DNA of 64,000 nucleotides from Amphibalanus amphitrite (taxonomy: Eukaryota; Arthropoda; Thecostraca; Balanomorpha; Balanidae). Shown in pieces: positions 8,263 to 64,000 of this stretch. Every line of letters starts with the position of its first letter. The stretch's first letter is position 1. The notes under the pieces were generated by a model, which saw nothing but the letters and a program-made list of their open reading frames with translations, ran no database searches and was not told the origin of the DNA. The position numbers were made by a program, and so were the translations under genes. The stretch is from contig NW_024881824.1 of assembly GCF_019059575.1 (NCBI RefSeq), positions 248,001 to 312,000 of the forward strand, read 5' to 3'.

Positions 8263-9408
8263 TTAACCCGCCCCGGGCCGGGGGGGGGGGGGGTGTTTGA
8301 ACACCCCCCGCGGTTTTTGAGTTAGCACACCTGTTCGGGCATCTTTTCCGCACATGTTATGAAAATTTTAGACCCAGGTCGCCTTAGGTCAGGTCACCAG
8401 GTCACGCCAAGTGACCTCACCTCAGAAAAAAAGAATGCTCGTCATACCTACACCGATTGATCGATTGCCTTGAAACTTTCAGCAATTGATAAGAGCAACA
8501 TTATCTATAAAATGTTTGTCTCAGAATTTTGATGTCGGTGACCTCAGGTCAGGTCAATTTTGCGACCTCTCCATTATAAGTCAATGGGAGAAAATTGAAA
8601 AACGTCTGATTTGCACGAACGCCATTCTAGACACTATCAAACATCGAGATGTAGGTAAAATTGACACACTGAACCGAAAAATGGCAACTGTGACCCCTGG
8701 TTATGTCCCCGAGGTCATCTCAGGTCACGAACAGAATCTAACAGTTTTTCGCTAATAACTTCTGCTAGAGGCGTGCTAGAGCGCTGAAAACGCCTTAGGT
8801 GTGTTCGGCTCGACGTTGCGGACCGACTGATATGCCACATGACCTTTTCCGGTCAGGTCATGACCTTGACCTGGGGTCAAATTTTCAAGTTGACCTTTGA
8901 AGGTCAAATTATAGTTCATTCGACGCGTCTCGACGAGAGGAACACGATGCTGGCAAAAGTAATGTCATGGCTCTTTTGAGTCAAAAGTTATTGCCGAAAA
9001 AAAAACATTTTTCGTAAAAACGGTTATTTTTGGAGTTTTTGCCCTCTGGAGGCTAAACCGTTGACCTGCAGTCAAATCTAAGAACATTACTCAGAAAGGT
9101 CTGTAAAAGGGTTATCGAATGCGCTTTTCCTCAGCGCTGTAGCTCTATCGGTTCCCGAGATAGCCGTTGACAGTTTCCAAAATGTTGAAATAGTCAACAT
9201 TTTACCTTTGGTGACCTCTGGTGACCTGACCTTTGACCTGACCCAAAAAATGACCCGAAGTGTTTTCGTCCTTATTTTGGACGTTCTTTCGATTGTCGCT
9301 TACCGCGCGTAGCTACGTGGCCCAGGAGCCGAGTTAGAAGGGGTGGGGGGTGTTCAGACACCCCCGGCCCGGCGCGGAATCTCAGAGCACCGGCCCGGCG
9401 CGGGTTAA
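8263..9408 (+). mobile_element. piggyBac-type MITE, family A (1.15 kb)
   Basis: A non-autonomous element bounded by TTAA on both sides. The left end is TTAACCCGCCCCGGGCCGG (8263-8281). The right end at 9390-9408 is its inverted repeat with one mismatch in 19. TTAA target sites followed by CCC and ended by GGG are the hallmark of piggyBac-like elements. Just inside each end lies a hairpin: a G run, then GTGTTTGAACAC or GTGTTCAGACAC, then a C run. The right terminal 13 bases are duplicated at 9365-9377. The interior holds many AGGTCA or TGACCT hexamers and no transposase; the 89-codon open frame at 8486-8755 looks accidental. A diverged copy lies inverted at 54.56-55.66 kb, which confirms a dispersed repeat. 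No autonomous partner is in the window, so the superfamily rests on the termini. Confidence 0.72.
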
Positions 9409-49512: not shown

Positions 49513-49895
49513 GGCGCCAGCCCCAGGTGGTGCTTCTTCATCTAAATGGAGATCCGTCTCGTGTCTGTGGGCGAAACCAGCAGCTTAGGACCGGGCGCTG
49601 GAGCAGCGGCCGGCCAGCCGCCCGGGCCGCGTCCAGGGCGATACGGCGTACCGGCCGAGTACTCTGTCAACCCGCTCCTGGCGCCGCCTCCGACTGCAGT
49701 GCCGCCATTATCGACACATGCAAAGATGGCATCGAGCGTAAACTGACCCTGGCCTACACGTTTCCACGTAGAACTTTCACGGTGCTTTCCGTGCCGACGA
49801 TGGCGAGTACCGATAGGCGTCGGCGGTTTCAGTCAAACAGCCAGACGGTCACTGCGCTCCCCTGCCAACACGGTGCCAATCTCAGGGGAACATTA

Positions 49896-50099
49896 TAGGG
49901 TGTGTCACTAGAAACAGATCAATTGCTTCCGCTGATTTTCCTTGTCCCTGTGTCTATGGAAGCCCATTGGTGCAGTTCTTTTTTCCATGCATCGAAAATT
50001 CGATCGGCGCCGGCTAAAAGAAGTTCGGGATTTATCGTGGCGCCCGGCGTTGCAGTCTCCATGTTTGGCGTAATGCGTTTGATGACACTAACACCAGCC
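49896..50099 (+). repeat. Left terminal inverted repeat of the 2.5-kb transposon
   Basis: It starts TAGGGTGTGTCAC and ends ACACCAGCC. It pairs with the repeat at 52,189-52,403 at roughly two thirds to three quarters identity by eye, with islands of near-perfect match. Translation of both repeats gives related peptides (compare IFLVPVSMEAHW and IFLVPGFIEAHW), but this follows from the DNA identity. Confidence 0.8.
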
Positions 50100-50267
50100 G
50101 CGCGCGTCTTCGCCTGTTAGCGTTGACACTTGACAGACGCTGTTAATACGGATGTAAGCAATGCAAACGAGGCAGTATCCTCTTTTTAGACAACGGTTAC
50201 ACAGAAAAGATGCATCTTTGCCATTCAATAGCAAACTGAATTCAACTGAATTAGCATTTGCCTACCT

Positions 50268-51686
50268 TGTATGGTTCAGGGGACCGATTTTCTTCCAGGC
50301 CTCCTTTGAGGAGATGTTGCCCGTCCGCGCGGCTCTGGTGAGCTGATACAGCAGGAGTTGGTCGCTGCTGTGGTCGGCGATGATGTCCGGCAGATCCAGC
50401 TCTGGGCCTCTCACCAGTCACCGGTCGGAACTTCACGGGAGAAAGAGGGTGCACGGAGCAGCCAGCTGCCTTACCCAACGGCCCCGTGAATGATCCGGGT
50501 CCACTGGTTTTGCCGTCCAAGTTCTGGAACACTTCCCTGAGTACAAGCTCATTCGAGTGCAGCTGGCAAGCAAACCAATGGACCGTTTTCTCTTGAATAA
50601 GCTCCAAAAGTCGGCATATTCCTCCAGATCTGCCCGTATTGACAGCCGCGCCATCGCAGCCTATTAGCCAGAGTGGCAGCGTTTATCAGCTCATTGGCTT
50701 GATCAATGGCTTTACCCGAAATTGGCGTAAAGTTGGAGAGATATTCGTTTCCTGGTTCTGCTACCTTAGCCACATGTTCCTCAGCTGCCGTGTCGCCGCC
50801 TCGGCCCGTGCTAGTTTGATCATGCCTTCCATCAAAGTACATGGCCTTGAGCTCAGCGTCGCTGTGTTGTTGGTCCCGCGCGGCCACTGTACTTGGTCTC
50901 ATCCGGCATCTTTCTCTCTATACTTTTTCGGGTCGACCAGCAATTCTGCTTTGCCGCTCGCTACGCGACCGATATCCATCTGAAAACCGTTGATGACGGC
51001 CGTCACAGCACGGTTGGATAAACCATACCTGTCAGTCAGCTGCCAGTGCAGTGTTTGTCATATCATCATCGTTTGAGTCTTTGATGCATTTCTTCATCTC
51101 AAATCATCTTCAGTGCATCACTTGTGACGTCTTCATTGCTGTCGTTGGTGTCGGTCGTTGCCGACGAGTCTACCTGGCCTGTCTCGTCGATATTGACGCC
51201 GTTGGAATAGGTACGGAGGTGGGAAGGACCAGCTTGACCCACGTCGCCCCTCCTCTCGTTCCGCTCCCGTCTCATTCTAAGGCTCGCAGTCTTACGCCGT
51301 TTCCTTGTCTCCTCGTAGTCCACACCACCCAGTCTCATCTTCCGAACTCCTCTCTGGTCTCGAAGGAATGCTATTTCCGCTGGCGGTACCCGGTTTGAAA
51401 GTGGAGAGGTACAGCTTCGCCGATCTTTACAGCGGCAGCGGGCGATGTCAAAAAGCTTACGAAACAGACTCGCTTCAGAAAGACTTTGTTTCGCTTGTCC
51501 CTCCTGCATTCTTTTGGGCACCTTATTCGATCGGCGAAATCTTTCGTAGATTTGCTTTACCTTCCGAACCACATTGTGCATTTGTATCGTTGGTATGCCC
51601 TCACTCGACCACATTGCAACCACAGCTTCCGCTGCTTCACGTAAACATGCAGTGACTGTCCGCTCACTTTTTCTATCCCCTGCCAA
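50268..51686 (-). pseudogene. Decayed transposase-like gene, unnamed arthropod/cnidarian family
   Basis: Motifs in protein order, running leftwards on the - strand: LFDIARCRC and a following cysteine (about 51,440), VPPAEIAFLRDQRGVRKM (about 51,370), YGLSNRAVTAVINGFQMD (about 50,990), AMYFDGRHDQT (about 50,845), EEHVAKVAEPGNEYL (about 50,780), a GCDG-x3-NTG block (about 50,650), HWFACQLHSNELVLREVF (about 50,580), LDGKTSGP and ELDLPDIIADHSSDQ (about 50,400). These match the usual order and spacing of a protein family of several hundred residues. The conserved aspartates in YFDGR and CDG suggest an RNase H-like DDE nuclease, which is an inference. The frame is broken at least three times. The sequence stops being recognisable at about 50,268 after GPLNHT, leaving no room for the C-terminal part before the left TIR. 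The longest intact frame is 195 codons (51,099-51,686). Confidence 0.72.
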
Positions 51687-52188
51687 GGCCCAAGAGTCTC
51701 ACATAGTTGTAGGCAGCTGATTTACCTACCGGCAACACACTGGGAGACCCGATAACAAAATGTTTCGCTTTGCTTCGCAACGGCATCACTGCGGCACGGA
51801 TAGTCCGATTCGATTGCGCCACACGCATTTCTGCTCACGCCGCAGCTGAAACCAGACTGACCCACGTTCTTCACAAGCTCGTGTGCCTCGGGGAGACAGC
51901 ACATGACTCAAAAGCCGACACATTGTGTTGCCGACGGAGAAAGATACCCGAGACCCCGCTCACGTTGCCCTCTGTCCATCCGTGCTCTCATTCTCTCTGC
52001 CCCACTCGTGATAGTCTTGCCAAGGCTGCAGCGTGATCCTATTATATGGATCATCTTAGGGTCCCTGAATGGCCCCAACACATTAAGATAGCAGTATGTT
52101 TCGTCCGACGTCCATTTAAACAAGAAATAGCAATCGAATTTTAACCGTCAAACGGTGTTGGCCGCAACAGGCCGACGGCGAGTCATAT

Positions 52189-52403
52189 GGCTGGTGTTAT
52201 CGCTACGGTACGCATTGTGTTCAGTATGGAGACTTCAACGCCGGGCGCCATGGGAAATGTCGAAATTGATTGGGCCCGCGCCGCCTGAATTTTCGGTGCA
52301 GCGAAAAAAGAACGGTGCCAATGGGCTTCAATGAACCCAGGGACGAGGAATATCCGCGGAAGCGCTTGATCTGAGACAAAAATATTAGATATAACACACC
52401 CTA
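52189..52403 (-). repeat. Right terminal inverted repeat of the 2.5-kb transposon
   Basis: Inverted partner of 49,896-50,099, ending ACACACCCTA at 52,403. It lies on the 5' side of the transposase-like gene, so it would hold the promoter if the element followed the usual plan. Confidence 0.8.
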
Positions 52404-52924
52404 GGGAACAAGCTCCTACGAATGAAGCCAGGTTCGTAACTCGGCCGTCCGCCTTACGTATGAGTTCACGAGAGAAGGCCGACATATCAGTATCACTCAG
52501 CAAACACCAACTAAATGTACCCATGGATTATTTATTTATTTGCTACGGCTGCGGACCGTGGTGTATGAAATATGAGTTATGACCATCTTTCGGTCCGGCA
52601 CGTTCTGGGGGGAAGGGGGTGTAGCTGGGGGAGGGGGGGGTGTTCTGAGGGGACTTGGAAGCTGAGCACTTGAAGTTTCTGGGTCTGCACTGTGCGTTGA
52701 AGCTTAAGCTTCTTCGAAAACTAGTTTTCCTGTTTTAACTTCAGTTTTCTCGGTAACGATTCTTTTATGCTCGATCCTTCTCGCTTTTTTTCATTCATTG
52801 CGGCCTCCGGATTTTAGGCATGCCCGCATTGAATAGGTGAAACACTTGTGAAACCATAAAAGGGAGCGATATGGTTTGGCTGTTGCTGCCTATCAATGCA
52901 AATAATCACCATTGTCACTAGCCC
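52404..52924. other. Short anonymous stretch
   Basis: No gene is recognised. It contains a TTATTTATTTATTTG run near 52,528 and a G-rich patch near 52,609-52,640. Confidence 0.4.
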
Positions 52925-54559: not shown

Positions 54560-55663
54560 TAGCCCTGAGGTGTTTGAACATCCCCTCTCCCGTCTAACTC
54601 CGCTCCTGGGCTAGGCAGCGACACGCGGTAAGCAATAAGCAGTAAGCACTCGAAAGAGTGTCAACAATAATGAAGGAAGTACCTGATCATTTTTTAGGCC
54701 AAATCAAAGGTCAGGTCAGCAAAGATCAAATTTTGCCTATTTCAGCATTGTTTGACAAATCGGCGCATAACTCGGGAGCCACTAGAGCTATAGCGCCTCG
54801 GAAGCTCTTTCTGAGTTAAGCTCTCAGATTTTACTTAAGATCAACGGTTTAGCCTCCAGAGGACAAAAACTCTTTAAAATTGCTCTTTTAACTGTACCTA
54901 CACGTTTTCTGTAATAACTTTTGACTAAAGAAAAGACGACATTGTATTCGAGGGCATCGTGTTCCTCTCGTCAAAACGCGTCGAGTCAACTATAATTTTA
55001 CCATAAAAGGTCATTTTGAAAATTTGACCTAAGGTCAAGGTCATGACCAGACCGGAAAGGGTCATGTTTGCATATCAGTCGATTCGTATCGTCTGAACAC
55101 ATCTAAGGTGGTTTAATCGCTTTATCAAGACTCCATCCAAAGTTATTACCTATAAAAAACCGCAGGAGAGCCTACATGACTTGAGATGACTTCAGGGACA
55201 TGAAGAGGGTTCACGGGTGCAACTTTCCGATTAAGTATGACATGTTTACTTAAAGTCCGATGTTTGTGAGTGTTAAGTATGACGTTCGTAAAAAACAAAA
55301 CATTTTAATTTTATCACATTGACTTACACAATGGAGAGGTCGTAAAATTGACTTGACCGTAGGTCGTTGATATCAAAATTCCGAGACAAATATTTTATAC
55401 ATAGTTAGGTACCTACTCCGGCTCTAATCAATCGCTGAAAGTTCCAAAGCGATCGTTCAGTCGGTGTAGGTATGGCGAGCATTGCCTACATAAAACTCTT
55501 TCTAATGTAAGGTTTTTGGTAAGAAATTTGACGTGACCTGGTGACTTGAACTTGGGTGACCTGGGTCTGAAATTTTCACAACCTGTCCAGAAGATATGCA
55601 TAAACAGTCGTGCCAAAAACCACATGGGGTGTTCAAACACCCCCTCCCGCCGGCCCGGGATAA
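54560..55663 (-). mobile_element. Second copy of MITE family A, inverted and diverged
   Basis: Read on the - strand this copy starts TTATCCCGGGCCGG (a mutated form of the family A terminus) at about 55,663, then shows GGGGGTGTTTGAACACCCC, GTGGTTTTTGGCA, a GAAAATTTCAGACCCAGGTCACC block, CCTACACCGA and GAACTTTCAGCGATTGAT, in the same order as 8,263-8,490. Its other end reads CTTACCGCGTGTCGCTGCC, then AGGAGCGGAGTTAGACGGG and a hairpin GGGATGTTCAAACACC, matching 9,298-9,360. The GC-rich terminus and TTAA beyond this hairpin are lost. It is much diverged, so an old insertion. Confidence 0.75.
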
Positions 55664-59878: not shown

Positions 59879-62800
59879 TCACTCTCGCTCCGGGCATGTC
59901 AATAGCCGGAGCAGGCGGCGAGATACTTGGTCCCGGCGACTCATCAGGAAGGCAAGCGAGTCAGCTAGGCCATCGGGAGCCCGTTGGGGGTAGATACGGT
60001 CGCTGCACGGCCGCCCTGCTGCCACCCCGAGGAGTGCAGAAAGGTTGCAGTCACACATCTCATGAAGCTGTATCAGTAATGAGCCCACTAGCTCAGTCGG
60101 GCACATAGCCAGCTTGGTGATTCCTGACAGCAGCGCCTGCTGCAGCCGGTGCTCTGAGCGCATCGCATCTTTCAAAGTGCGGAAACACGCTGCCCGCAGC
60201 AGTTCATGTGCTGGTTGGATGTCGGCAGCAGCGAGAAGCGCCGAATGGTGGGCGGAGCGAGGCAGGCCAAGAACCACCTTGATGGAAGTCGCTTGAGCGG
60301 AACAGAGGATCGTCATGTCCCTTGCATTGAGCGGGGCGGCCACGCAGCCATATGTGAGCGCCGGTTGAATGATAGTCTTCCACAAGAAGCACTTGTCGGC
60401 TGGGCAGAGGCCGGACGTCAGCATACCAGCAGGCGCGAGACCGTACAGGCTGGCACGAGCTCGAGACGCGCGGTGCTGGACGTGTGGCGCCGCAGATAAA
60501 CTCCCATCCAGTACGACACCGAGGTGCTCGGACTGCTGGCGGGTGGAGAGCTGCTGGCCCGACAGGCTCCATCTTGGCACTTCGGATAGAAGCTCGGCGC
60601 CGAAGACCATGCAGTGGCTTTTGGTGCGGACGGGCTCCGGGTGGACGAACTCCAGCCTCCAGGTCTTCGCAAAGTCATCAACCACATCTAGTAGAGTGCT
60701 GAGGTTTCTGGCATTGGTGGACAGGAGTAGCAGATCATCGGCATAGCAGACAGCTGGCACGTGGTGACCATATAGGTCAGCACCGAGATCGCTTACGTCC
60801 AAGGCGGCTACGAGCGGGTGTAGGTAGGCGTTGGCTAGGATAGGCGAGAGAATAGCACCTTGCCTGGTGCCCCGGCGGATCCTGAATGAGTCGGATATGG
60901 CACCGTCAAAGGCAATGTGAGCCTGAAGTCGGCGGTACCAGGCAAGCATGAGCAGCCATGAGTTCGGACGAAGGTGTTGCGCCAGACGGTGGAATAGCCC
61001 GTCATGCCAGATCTTATCAAAACACTTCCTGGCGTCCAAGTTTGCCGCGTAAACTGGCAGATCTCGTTGTCGGCACCACTGAATGGTCTCGAGGGCCAAT
61101 ATGGATGCTTCGCTGGTGCCTCGCTGTTTCACGAATCCCAGCTGAAGGTCGTGCGGACAGAAACTGGCCTCAAGTTCATCCAGCAACAGCATCTCCAGCA
61201 GCTTCGACGTGCACGATGTCAGGCTAATAGGCCGGTAGTTGTCCAGATTGTTTGGATCAAGCTGGGATTTCTTCAGAAGAGGCACTACCACGCTCTCTGC
61301 AAATGTGGCCGGCACATTGCACGAAGACAAACAGGCCGATAGAAGCTGGGCCAGTGCCGATAGCAGGGGAGGAGAACAGCCATAGATGAGGTGTTCCGCC
61401 GTCACGCCGTCCGCACCCGGTACCTTGCGCAGAGGGAGGCGGCGCAACAGGTCGGCAACTTGACTCACGGTGACCGTCCGAGTGGTGGCCAGAGTGGAAT
61501 AGCGTCGCGCCCTTTCTTCGACTGCAGCAGCAATCTGAGCCTGCTCAGAGTCTAGCAGGGAGGGCTCGTCCGCGTGCACCGCCTCGAAATGTCTTCCGAA
61601 CTCGCTGGCAGTGCGACCACCCCCAGGAGGGAGAGGGCCGCGCCGAGAGCGCTGAACCCGTCGCCAGAAGGCGTTGGTGTTCCCATTGCGCTTGAGTTGG
61701 TGCAACAGACGGGCCTCTTGCTGCACGGGGGCTAAGGCTGCTGTGCGGCGAGCTTTCCGGTACTCTCTTCTAGCTGACTGGTAGCAGGAGTAGACCGTCG
61801 AATGAAGAGGTCGACCACAGCTGGTCCAGACATGGAGCCAGAAGCGTACTCGGTCACGTGCAGCTGCTGTGGCAGGGGTCCACCATGGTTTTGGCCGGCG
61901 CCGCTGTTTAACACAGTCTGCCTCTCTAGCGGCGGCGAGCAGGCAGCGGGATATTGTTGAGTCCAGCGCATCGAGCGAGGTGCCACAACTAGGGAGTTGA
62001 GTCACGAGCATGCCGGTAAGAATATGCTTGTAGTCTTCTAATCTGTCGACGCGGTCCCAGCAAAGTAGATCGGAATCAGGCACAGGAGTGGCCCGAGAGA
62101 TGGCGCGGTGCGTCGTCTCCGTTGGAGCTGCAGTTGCCACCAACAGCCGACAGACGAGCGGCTGGTGCGGGCTGAGGTTTTCTGGATGTGGAGGCAGAAT
62201 CTGGCAGCCAGCTACGCGCGGTAGCAGGGAAAACGGTACAGCGATATGGTCGATGTGACTCTTGCAGTCGGCGCGTGCGTATGTGAAATTCACCTGCTGG
62301 GGGAATAGAAATTCTGCAGCCACAAGTTCGTACTGGTCGAGCAGCTGCTGCATGGCGACACTGTGCCGAGTGAACCCTCGAAGTCGTTGCCACAGAGGCG
62401 GACGTGAAGTTGCTGGGAGACGCGGTAGTGCACAGTTGAAGTCACCGGCTACAACCACCGGAGCAGAGGGACGCAGCGCCATGATTAGAGCGTCCAGCTT
62501 GGCAATAACACTGTCGTACTCCTCCGAGTTACCGGCTTGCCCGTCCCAGTACGGCATGTAGCAGCCAATGACGGTCAGCACCGGGCGTCCATCCATCAGC
62601 ACCGTTACACCGCACAGGCGGGGGTCGTCACAGCTGCAGGATTTGAAGGTCAGTCCGGGTCGGCGGCGACATACGAGAGCAAGGCCTCCGCGTCTTCTGC
62701 CCTCACCCACGCCGGGAGGCACCTCCATTGCGAATGACTGGAACACCAGTAGTTCACTGTGTCCAGCAGAAGTGAAAATTCTTGGTGCGTAAACCTCCTC

Positions 62801-63067
62801 CGCTCGAGACAGCCAGCTTTCTGACAATACTAATATATCGCAGAGTGGCAGAACATATTCATCGATATATTTGAACGCTGACAGCAGACCCTCGCAGTTG
62901 TAGGCACCGATGGCGATGGTCGCGTTTTCGGGCAGTTCGCGATTAGCGACGCCGCGGCTGGGGTACCGTGCCGCCGAGCCGTGGCCAGCTGTTGTCGTCT
63001 CTGGAGTCCCAGGAGGCAGGTGCGCTGCCAACGTTTCGATGCCGCGTACGGGCATGGCCACGCGCAT
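59879..63067 (-). CDS. LINE ORF2: endonuclease and reverse transcriptase (1062 aa)
   Basis: The protein that nicks target DNA and copies the element RNA. The endonuclease spans about residues 50-310 with all the expected catalytic blocks: YNCEG (56-60), SES with E83, GCYMP with Y170, GDFN (208-211), SHIDHI (270-275) and SPHQPLV with H301. A linker follows. The reverse transcriptase spans about 550-830: NYRPISL (610-616), motif A NLDARKCFD with D678 and F683-D684, motif B RRGTRQGAILSP (731-742), motif C YADD (775-778), then HLGVVLDG. The C-terminal 200 residues are helical with no RNase H and no clear zinc knuckle. No stop or frameshift is seen, so it could be functional. The first ATG at 63,067 overlaps ORF1 by 125 nt in another frame; the true start may differ. 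Confidence 0.93.
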   Translation of the reverse strand: MRVAMPVRGIETLAAHLPPGTPETTTAGHGSAARYPSRGVANRELPENATIAIGAYNCEGLLSAFKYIDEYVLPLCDILVLSESWLSRAEEVYAPRIFTSAGHSELLVFQSFAMEVPPGVGEGRRRGGLALVCRRRPGLTFKSCSCDDPRLCGVTVLMDGRPVLTVIGCYMPYWDGQAGNSEEYDSVIAKLDALIMALRPSAPVVVAGDFNCALPRLPATSRPPLWQRLRGFTRHSVAMQQLLDQYELVAAEFLFPQQVNFTYARADCKSHIDHIAVPFSLLPRVAGCQILPPHPENLSPHQPLVCRLLVATAAPTETTHRAISRATPVPDSDLLCWDRVDRLEDYKHILTGMLVTQLPSCGTSLDALDSTISRCLLAAAREADCVKQRRRPKPWWTPATAAARDRVRFWLHVWTSCGRPLHSTVYSCYQSARREYRKARRTAALAPVQQEARLLHQLKRNGNTNAFWRRVQRSRRGPLPPGGGRTASEFGRHFEAVHADEPSLLDSEQAQIAAAVEERARRYSTLATTRTVTVSQVADLLRRLPLRKVPGADGVTAEHLIYGCSPPLLSALAQLLSACLSSCNVPATFAESVVVPLLKKSQLDPNNLDNYRPISLTSCTSKLLEMLLLDELEASFCPHDLQLGFVKQRGTSEASILALETIQWCRQRDLPVYAANLDARKCFDKIWHDGLFHRLAQHLRPNSWLLMLAWYRRLQAHIAFDGAISDSFRIRRGTRQGAILSPILANAYLHPLVAALDVSDLGADLYGHHVPAVCYADDLLLLSTNARNLSTLLDVVDDFAKTWRLEFVHPEPVRTKSHCMVFGAELLSEVPRWSLSGQQLSTRQQSEHLGVVLDGSLSAAPHVQHRASRARASLYGLAPAGMLTSGLCPADKCFLWKTIIQPALTYGCVAAPLNARDMTILCSAQATSIKVVLGLPRSAHHSALLAAADIQPAHELLRAACFRTLKDAMRSEHRLQQALLSGITKLAMCPTELVGSLLIQLHEMCDCNLSALLGVAAGRPCSDRIYPQRAPDGLADSLAFLMSRRDQVSRRLLRLLTCPERE

Positions 63068-64000
63068 AGGTCCACTCGCCGTGCTCGTGAGAGTAGCCTG
63101 TAGTGGGCGCTGCGTCCCACTGAGTGCGGTTAGCGGCGGGCTGCTCGGTGGGTTGGTGCGGACCTGGATGACTGGACTGGTGCGTCGCGGCTGTGTAGTG
63201 GCTGGCTTGGACAGGAGTGGCAGGGACTCGAAATCTCCTTCGTCGCCGTCCGTTGTTATCGGCTTTAGGACGCACGCTGAGTCCCGTCGGCCATCGCGCA
63301 GAGTTCATGACGGCATCCGATCGAGACTCGGCGGTCTCGAACATGAAGGCCGCTCCTGGAGCCGACGGGCCGTCTGCAGGCAGACGGCGGAAACTGTATA
63401 CGTCTCCAGCCACCGACTGTACTAGGCCACGCACGGAGCTATCAGACGCGTCGGGGCGAAAACCCCAAACAATGAACTTTTTCTTTGCCGGCTGCTGGGT
63501 CACTCCTGGGGATAAGACCGAGTCAGAGGCCGCCCCAGCGCCCGTCACAGCGGCGAGTTCAGCTGGGCGCTGATTATCCGACCTTGGCGCGTTCAGCTGC
63601 CGGCTCGCGGTGGAGCCGTGGGTAACTGTTGGCGGAGGCGGAAGGTGTGCTGGTGGGTACTGCGCCCGTCGTGTATCTGTCGCTGGCAGAACCCCAAAAT
63701 CCCGTCTGGCAAAGCGCTCGTCCCCGCCCAATTCATCGTCATTTTCAGAATCAGAGTCGCCAGCTCGCCAGTGGATTCTGTCTGCGATGGCTTTACCGAG
63801 GGCAACGAGGTCAATGGCAGCGGCGATATCCTGGGCGGCCGGCGGGCTCGCCTGGCTCACCTGGGCGTCCGGTGGGCTCACCTGGGCGGTCGGTGGGCTC
63901 ACCTGGGCGGTCAGTGGGCTCGCCTGGGTCGCCTGGGCGGCCGGTGGGCTCGCCTGGGTCACCTGGGCGGCCGATGGGCTCGCCTGACTGCTCACCTGGG
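62943..64000 (-). CDS. LINE ORF1 protein, 5' partial
   Basis: The nucleic-acid-binding partner of ORF2. The frame is open to the window edge: the codon at 63,993-63,995 is GTG (valine), preceded by CAG, so the true start lies outside. The N-terminal part is a proline, alanine and glutamine-rich tandem repeat (units like QASPPAAQ). After an acidic stretch (DSDSEND) comes an RRM-like fold, KKFIVWGFRPDAS to TGLSVRPK, with the two expected beta strands (FIVWGF and AAFMFET). A basic RRRRRF stretch and a His, Thr and Gln-rich tail follow. No CCHC zinc knuckle is seen. It ends at 62,943 inside the ORF2 frame. Confidence 0.85.
   Translation of the reverse strand, partial: QVSSQASPSAAQVTQASPPAAQATQASPLTAQVSPPTAQVSPPDAQVSQASPPAAQDIAAAIDLVALGKAIADRIHWRAGDSDSENDDELGGDERFARRDFGVLPATDTRRAQYPPAHLPPPPTVTHGSTASRQLNAPRSDNQRPAELAAVTGAGAASDSVLSPGVTQQPAKKKFIVWGFRPDASDSSVRGLVQSVAGDVYSFRRLPADGPSAPGAAFMFETAESRSDAVMNSARWPTGLSVRPKADNNGRRRRRFRVPATPVQASHYTAATHQSSHPGPHQPTEQPAANRTQWDAAPTTGYSHEHGEWTYARGHARTRHRNVGSAPASWDSRDDNSWPRLGGTVPQPRRR
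63835..63990 (-). repeat. Coding tandem repeat in LINE ORF1
   Basis: Irregular units of about 24-39 nt built on GGGCTCACCTGGGCGG on the + strand encode Pro, Ala, Gln and Ser-rich octapeptide-like units in ORF1. The units differ slightly, so the number of copies probably varies between genomic copies of the LINE. Confidence 0.8.

Follow-up and report, generated by a model that had tools for sequence, protein, structure and literature searches.

Organization of the element in the window

As shown in Table 1, the window, which is the whole 64,000-nt stretch of the Amphibalanus amphitrite genome analysed here (G000:C327:248001-312000 of an 807.6-Mb assembly), contains a 2,508-bp element with an inverted repeat of about 200 bp at each end and a decayed gene on the minus strand between them. 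The element is probably a cut-and-paste DNA transposon of an hAT-related group, in a copy that is internally truncated and non-autonomous. An earlier note made from the sequence had pointed to the two repeats and the decayed gene, and the coordinates it gave proved exact. The arms are identical at 118 of 148 positions over 148 bp (blastn E 3.9e-31), and a longer alignment showed 76% complementarity across 185 bp. When 492 pairs of segments were drawn at random from the window, a single pair (161) outscored the arms (146), and the next best reached 44. The pair scoring 161 is presumably a CT/GA microsatellite pair, whose two parts lie at 15.3 kb and 52.9 kb. The terminal motifs TAGGGTGTGT and ACACACCCTA occur once each in the window, at the two tips of the element.

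A flush 8-bp duplication was absent at the window copy. Instead, a 7-bp match, GGGAACA, was found three bases off, and a match of this quality was equalled by 34 of 20,000 random pairs. Elsewhere in the window are a further family of repeats, represented by two stretches of about 1.1 kb in inverted orientation with 71% identity (8272-9362 and 54569-55659), and, on the minus strand, a LINE frame of 1,141 aa that is uninterrupted and includes both an endonuclease and a reverse transcriptase domain (59882-63304).

Table 1. Positions of the element and of its features in the window.
Feature	Position	Strand	Remark
Whole transposon copy, 2,508 bp, non-autonomous	49896..52403	.	Both ends are again homology boundaries in 17/20 extracted genome copies
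Terminal inverted repeat, gene 3' end	49896..50099	+	97-100% identity across 20 extracted copies
Terminal inverted repeat, gene 5' end	52189..52403	-	Found at that end in 17/20 extracted copies
Terminal motif TAGGGTGTGT	49896..49905	+	Start also seen in C4, C13 and C382 elements; as TAGGGTG in C1856
Opposite terminal motif, ACACACCCTA as read on the + strand	52394..52403	-	
GGGAACA, possible target-duplication trace, left	49886..49892	+	May be chance
GGGAACA, possible target-duplication trace, right	52404..52410	+	May be chance
Transposase exon 1 remnant (C382 residues 1-518, in pieces, several frames)	50265..51786	-	tblastn E 1e-73
LFDIARCRC, start of Cys-rich stretch (CxCx5CxC in C382, C201, C4, C569, C33)	51429..51455	-	Candidate zinc knuckle
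FLRDQRGVRKM, N-terminal domain motif	51336..51368	-	
MYFDGRHDQT, predicted first catalytic aspartate (D1)	50813..50842	-	Kept in 9/9 aligned proteins
GCDGAAVNTG, predicted second catalytic aspartate (D2)	50632..50661	-	Kept in 9/9 aligned proteins; lost in unaligned C33
WFACQLHSNELVLREVF, CxxH motif	50527..50577	-	C and H in 9/9 aligned proteins; H lost in C33
IGPLNHTR, then splice donor AAG/GTAGGC	50264..50288	-	Exon 2 (RW and catalytic E) absent beyond

The decayed gene

The gene remnant was delimited by tblastn with the 741-aa protein of a relative, C382, of which the first 518 residues are covered with small gaps at residues 37-56 and 233-241. All the motifs by which the gene had first been recognised lie within this remnant. 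It stops at a splice donor, and no exon 2 could be located in the window, where the best tblastn match (E 2.1) lay outside the element. Nor was exon 2 detected in any retrieved locus of the window family (tblastn, E 1e-3). Because the window copy is without the exon carrying the third catalytic residue, we regard it as non-autonomous.

Copies in the genome and their target sites

The 305-bp left end of the element was found at at least 40 places in the genome, its own included (all 40 scored, being the best 40 of 134 candidates). Identity was 100% at the window's own place and 94-97% at the remaining scored places, and 20 of the 39 scored places other than the window were extracted. Both ends were present in 17 of the 20 copies and were not found together in L019, L025 and L028. 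An exact, flush 8-bp target duplication flanked 12 of the 17 two-ended copies; in the other five the match was 6 bp (L014), shorter or shifted (L013, L021 and L026) or none (L012). Twenty-eight distinct left-end target sites were compared, the window and shifted or decayed sites included. T was present at position 2 (T2) in 23 of them, A at position 7 (A7) in 21, and both in 20, where the background expectation for the two together is 6.4%.

The window element is a young copy. Among 11 full-length copies aligned with it, five show 99.2-99.5% identity to it and six 96.1-96.5% (gaps excluded). A frame break between D1 and D2 is common to 13 of 17 rows and missing from 4 (the rows being the window, 14 of the 20 extracted copies, L029 and L031), which indicates that the broken gene multiplied after breaking. 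Since copies that had lost exon 2 and share this break multiplied all the same, the window family appears to have been moved in trans by the transposase of another copy. No helper carrying the ends of the window family itself turned up in the genome: the best exon-2 match was C382 itself, and the next were at most 59% identical (best 150 of 296 candidates).

Two irregularities were seen among the copies. L015, L020, L021 and two relatives described below (C4b and C13) are longer internally by about 0.7-1.5 kb, consistent with nested insertions. In L013, L021, L026 and the window copy, the duplications lie a few bases away from one of the ends and may be footprints or errors of end processing.

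Related elements that carry open genes

A protein search of the genome with the fragment from D1 to CxxH gave at least 128 matches (best 150 of 187 candidates), including long open frames of other lineages. As shown by four elements of two such lineages, open genes lie within the same kind of ends. C4 (copy C4a) is a 4,339-bp element and C382 a 3,935-bp element, each with an open gene, TAGGGTG ends and an exact 8-bp duplication. Over the aligned pieces, C4b and C13 each share 99.8-99.9% identity with C4a; both carry extra internal sequence, and exon 2 of C13 is interrupted. C4a, C4b and C13 are flanked by three different exact 8-bp duplications and C382 by a fourth, and all four elements start with TAGGGTGTGTC. 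A deep lineage is represented by C1856, a 2,506-bp element with TAGGGTGGCCC ends, tipped with TAGGGTG, and an exact ATATGCAT duplication. Its open frame of 695 aa has the first Met at residue 90, and the protein is about 20% identical to the first row of the alignment. At least four divergent lineages are present within one genome. At nine further loci (L067-L073, L051 and L052) the fetched stretch did not contain both element ends.

The earlier note had argued from the inverted repeats that the protein family is the transposase of a DNA transposon, and had proposed looking for recurrent inverted ends with a duplication of fixed length. Within the genome of the window, these were found together in 12 of 17 two-ended copies of the window family, in all four of C4a, C4b, C13 and C382, and in C1856. 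Open copies within TAGGGTG inverted ends and 8-bp duplications, in three lineages (C4/C13, C382 and C1856), bear the proposal out.

Several places, for example C444:308138-308449(-) with 309169-309480(+), and others in C404, C128, C221 and C156, contain two oppositely oriented copies of the C-terminal, E-bearing part, separated by about 1 kb. These are palindromic derivatives, with the 3' end of the transposase gene in each arm.

The transposase protein

In the lineages closest to that of the window copy, the gene is split into two exons; two-exon members were assembled in three cases and encode transposases of 741-772 aa. A GT/AG intron is present at the same place in all three genes, just before the W of ARW, and this is where the window copy stops. 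D, D, CxxH, ARW and ER are kept in all nine aligned proteins, the context of D1 being FDGR, YDGR, CDGR or WDGK. Left out before this count were C33 (L067), C738 (L071, which is 99.8% like C54 in DNA), L051 and near-identical copies of C4 type. In C382, D1 is residue 325, D2 is residue 390, CxxH starts at 419, ARW starts at 517 and the ER glutamate is residue 697. As D, D, CxxH, RW and E are present in every one of the nine, we infer that the family encodes a DDE transposase, with the chemistry and RNase H fold predicted from these residues. That the aspartates of YFDGR and CDG belong to a DDE-type nuclease had been suggested from the window alone; both are kept in nine divergent proteins, and the third acidic residue lies in the exon that the window copy lacks.

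The N-terminal region of C382, C201, C4, C569 and C33 carries CxCx5CxC, a candidate zinc-binding site that may replace a BED finger. In C33 (L067, C33:1038700-1041700), a frame of 502 aa is open and a frame for exon 2 is present, but D2, the His of CxxH and the Glu of ER have been lost. C33 may be a copy that is dead although its frames are hardly damaged, or it may have been domesticated. A single-sequence AlphaFold model of the window fragment, built without relatives, had a mean pLDDT of 40.6 and was too poor for use.

Database and literature searches

None of the six long members reached E 0.01 with any Pfam model (the best was HEAT, 0.012), and the window pieces gave nothing significant. 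Nothing better than E 0.45 was found in PDB by sequence or profile. Two window pieces had no match in NCBIfam, and three had only matches of E 0.36 or worse in PHROGs. No relatives were found beyond the genome in viral contigs, genome contigs or phages, and plasmids gave one chance-level match (E 0.3). As a positive control, the Pfam hAT models found true hATs in the genome and yet matched neither the window pieces nor the six long members. The hAT dimerisation model gave at least 149 genome matches (best 150 of 554 candidates), and no overlap was seen by eye between the matches listed for it and those listed for the D1-CxxH fragment. The family was not found in the literature searched, which took in few subscription papers and little of Repbase Reports; this is weak evidence of novelty, and the family has possibly been named elsewhere. 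We assume that it is spread among arthropods and cnidarians.

Possible relationship to hAT and alternative placements

Against a three-row hAT profile, the family profile gave E 0.0034 and 0.0029 with D2 and CxxH in register, a weak match with an HHalign probability of 7-11%. None of 60 column shuffles was as high, and the reversed profile scored low. Of two hATs from the genome itself, L076 was in register at D2 and CxxH (E 0.0051, 0/40 shuffles as high) and L075 was no better than shuffles (11/40 as high). The catalytic part of Hermes matched at E 0.025 with the D2 region one residue off, and shuffles were as high in 0/100 cases in one run and 1/60 in another; when C1856 was left out, the comparison gave E 0.0071 and 0/60 shuffles as high. 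The C-terminal part of Hermes was aligned at ER-ER, but 45/60 shuffles were as high. The window fragment alone gave no signal against Hermes (27/60 shuffles as high). When a genome MULE was compared with two family profiles, 1/40 and 16/40 shuffles were as high and the alignment lay away from the motifs. The balance of these profile comparisons favours a distant kinship with hAT, which is unproven.

The family might also be a separate DDE superfamily, parallel to hAT within the C/DxxH assemblage and not a branch of hAT, a placement that we consider possible but somewhat doubtful. It would agree with the empty Pfam (E 0.01) and PDB (E 0.45) results, the missing BED match, the long inverted repeats, the N-terminal DQR motif with CxCx5CxC in several members, and the four or more lineages diverging within one genome. 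However, it was with hAT that profile alignments surpassed shuffles and were in register at D2 and CxxH, and the motif order as well as the length and preference of the duplications fit hAT. In Repbase, the superfamily criterion is described as PSI-BLAST convergence at E below 0.005 (PMC4455052). The earlier suggestion of an unclassified superfamily is in keeping with the absence of a Pfam model that names the family, while the profile comparison leans weakly to hAT; a new superfamily is possible and unproven. A bolder picture, which may be right but which we hold to be somewhat less likely than not, is an unnamed eukaryotic DDE group of superfamily level, sister to hAT. It would be marked by long repeats tipped with TAGGGTG, 8-bp nTnnnnAn duplications, an N-terminal DNA-binding region of its own, lineages with as little as about 20% identity, and recently moved copies that are nearly identical. 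Many animal proteins listed as 'uncharacterised' would then be transposases of this TAGGGTG-ended group.

Membership of the P superfamily would account for the 8-bp duplications with T2 and A7, and Galileo-type P elements also have long inverted repeats. However, the family has CxxH rather than DxxH, it has no THAP or P-type Pfam match, and P transposase is not known to have an RW motif. Alignment with a P transposase fragment lay off the catalytic motifs, with 21/60 and 52/60 shuffles as high, and we consider this membership very unlikely. The P element itself is reported to make 8-bp duplications at GTCCGGAC-like sites with T2 and A7 (PMC3276498), and therefore target preference does not separate hAT from P. 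Least probable of all is a family of domesticated or ordinary cellular multi-copy genes lying by chance between unrelated inverted repeats, for which there is hardly any room left. Long open frames, introns and many copies would suit such genes, and C33, an open frame without three of the catalytic-motif residues, might be a domesticated copy. The genes of C4/C13, C382 and C1856, however, each lie within their own TAGGGTG repeats and exact 8-bp duplications, and near-identical elements occupy different target sites; for these three lineages the cellular explanation is refuted.

Proposed mechanism and significance

In the mechanism that we propose for the hAT-related transposon, the transposase would bind the long inverted repeats tipped with TAGGGTG and cut the element out, and pasting into an nTnnnnAn-like target with an 8-bp stagger would give the 8-bp duplication. 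Intact members would act through a DDE domain made up of D1 in F/Y/C/W-D-G-R/K, D2, CxxH, ARW and the E of ER. The window family has lost exon 2, with RW and E, and would be mobilised in trans by the transposase of another copy. Hairpins may form on the flanking DNA as in hAT, a guess by analogy from CxxH and the presumed kinship.

A protein family for which Pfam has no model is here tied to a mobile element on physical grounds, namely the ends, the duplications of the target and the open genes found at different target sites. Where annotation depends on models of this kind, the proteins would probably be taken for genes of the host. Direct tests of the transposase are made possible by the near-identical copies whose genes are open, and the group may offer an outgroup-like view of the origin of the hAT catalytic domain (CxxH, RW and E).

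Comparison with known systems

The terminal consensus of hAT is YARNG, and the TAGGG end of the family fits it. The order of motifs, D, D, CxxH, RW and ER, is the same in both, the likeness at RW and ER being at the level of motifs only. Unlike hAT, the family is without a Pfam hAT, BED or dimerisation match and has its own N-terminal region and inverted repeats of about 200 bp. From D2 to C there are 17 residues in Hermes and 29 in the window fragment. Duplications of 8 bp and nTnnnnAn type occur in hAT and also in the window family, a pattern that fits P too; with P are shared the 8-bp duplication, T2, A7 and an xxxH motif after D2, and the difference is C in place of D. MuDR/MULE elements likewise have CxxH between D2 and E, but their target duplication is 9 bp and that of the family 8 bp; no MULE Pfam match was found, and MuDR/MULE was rejected as a home for the family.

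The remaining comparisons follow published accounts. nTnnnnAn is the target consensus given for Hermes (PMC2803484), and hobo has the same pattern. CxxH has a role in the hAT transposase Kat1, and a Trp is present two residues after D1 (D310/W312 in Kat1, W182 in Hermes; PMC4763223); in the family this Trp is missing (FDGR, YDGR, CDGR or WDGK). Dada belongs to the C/DxxH group as well but was rejected: its duplications are 6-7 bp long and lie inside small-RNA genes, and Dada-U6 and Dada-U1 are described as without terminal inverted repeats (PMC3706591), unlike the family. Kolobok also shares the C/DxxH motif, but it duplicates the 4-bp TTAA (PMC9587614), whereas the duplications are 8 bp in the window family, in C4a, C4b, C13 and C382 and in C1856, and it was likewise rejected.
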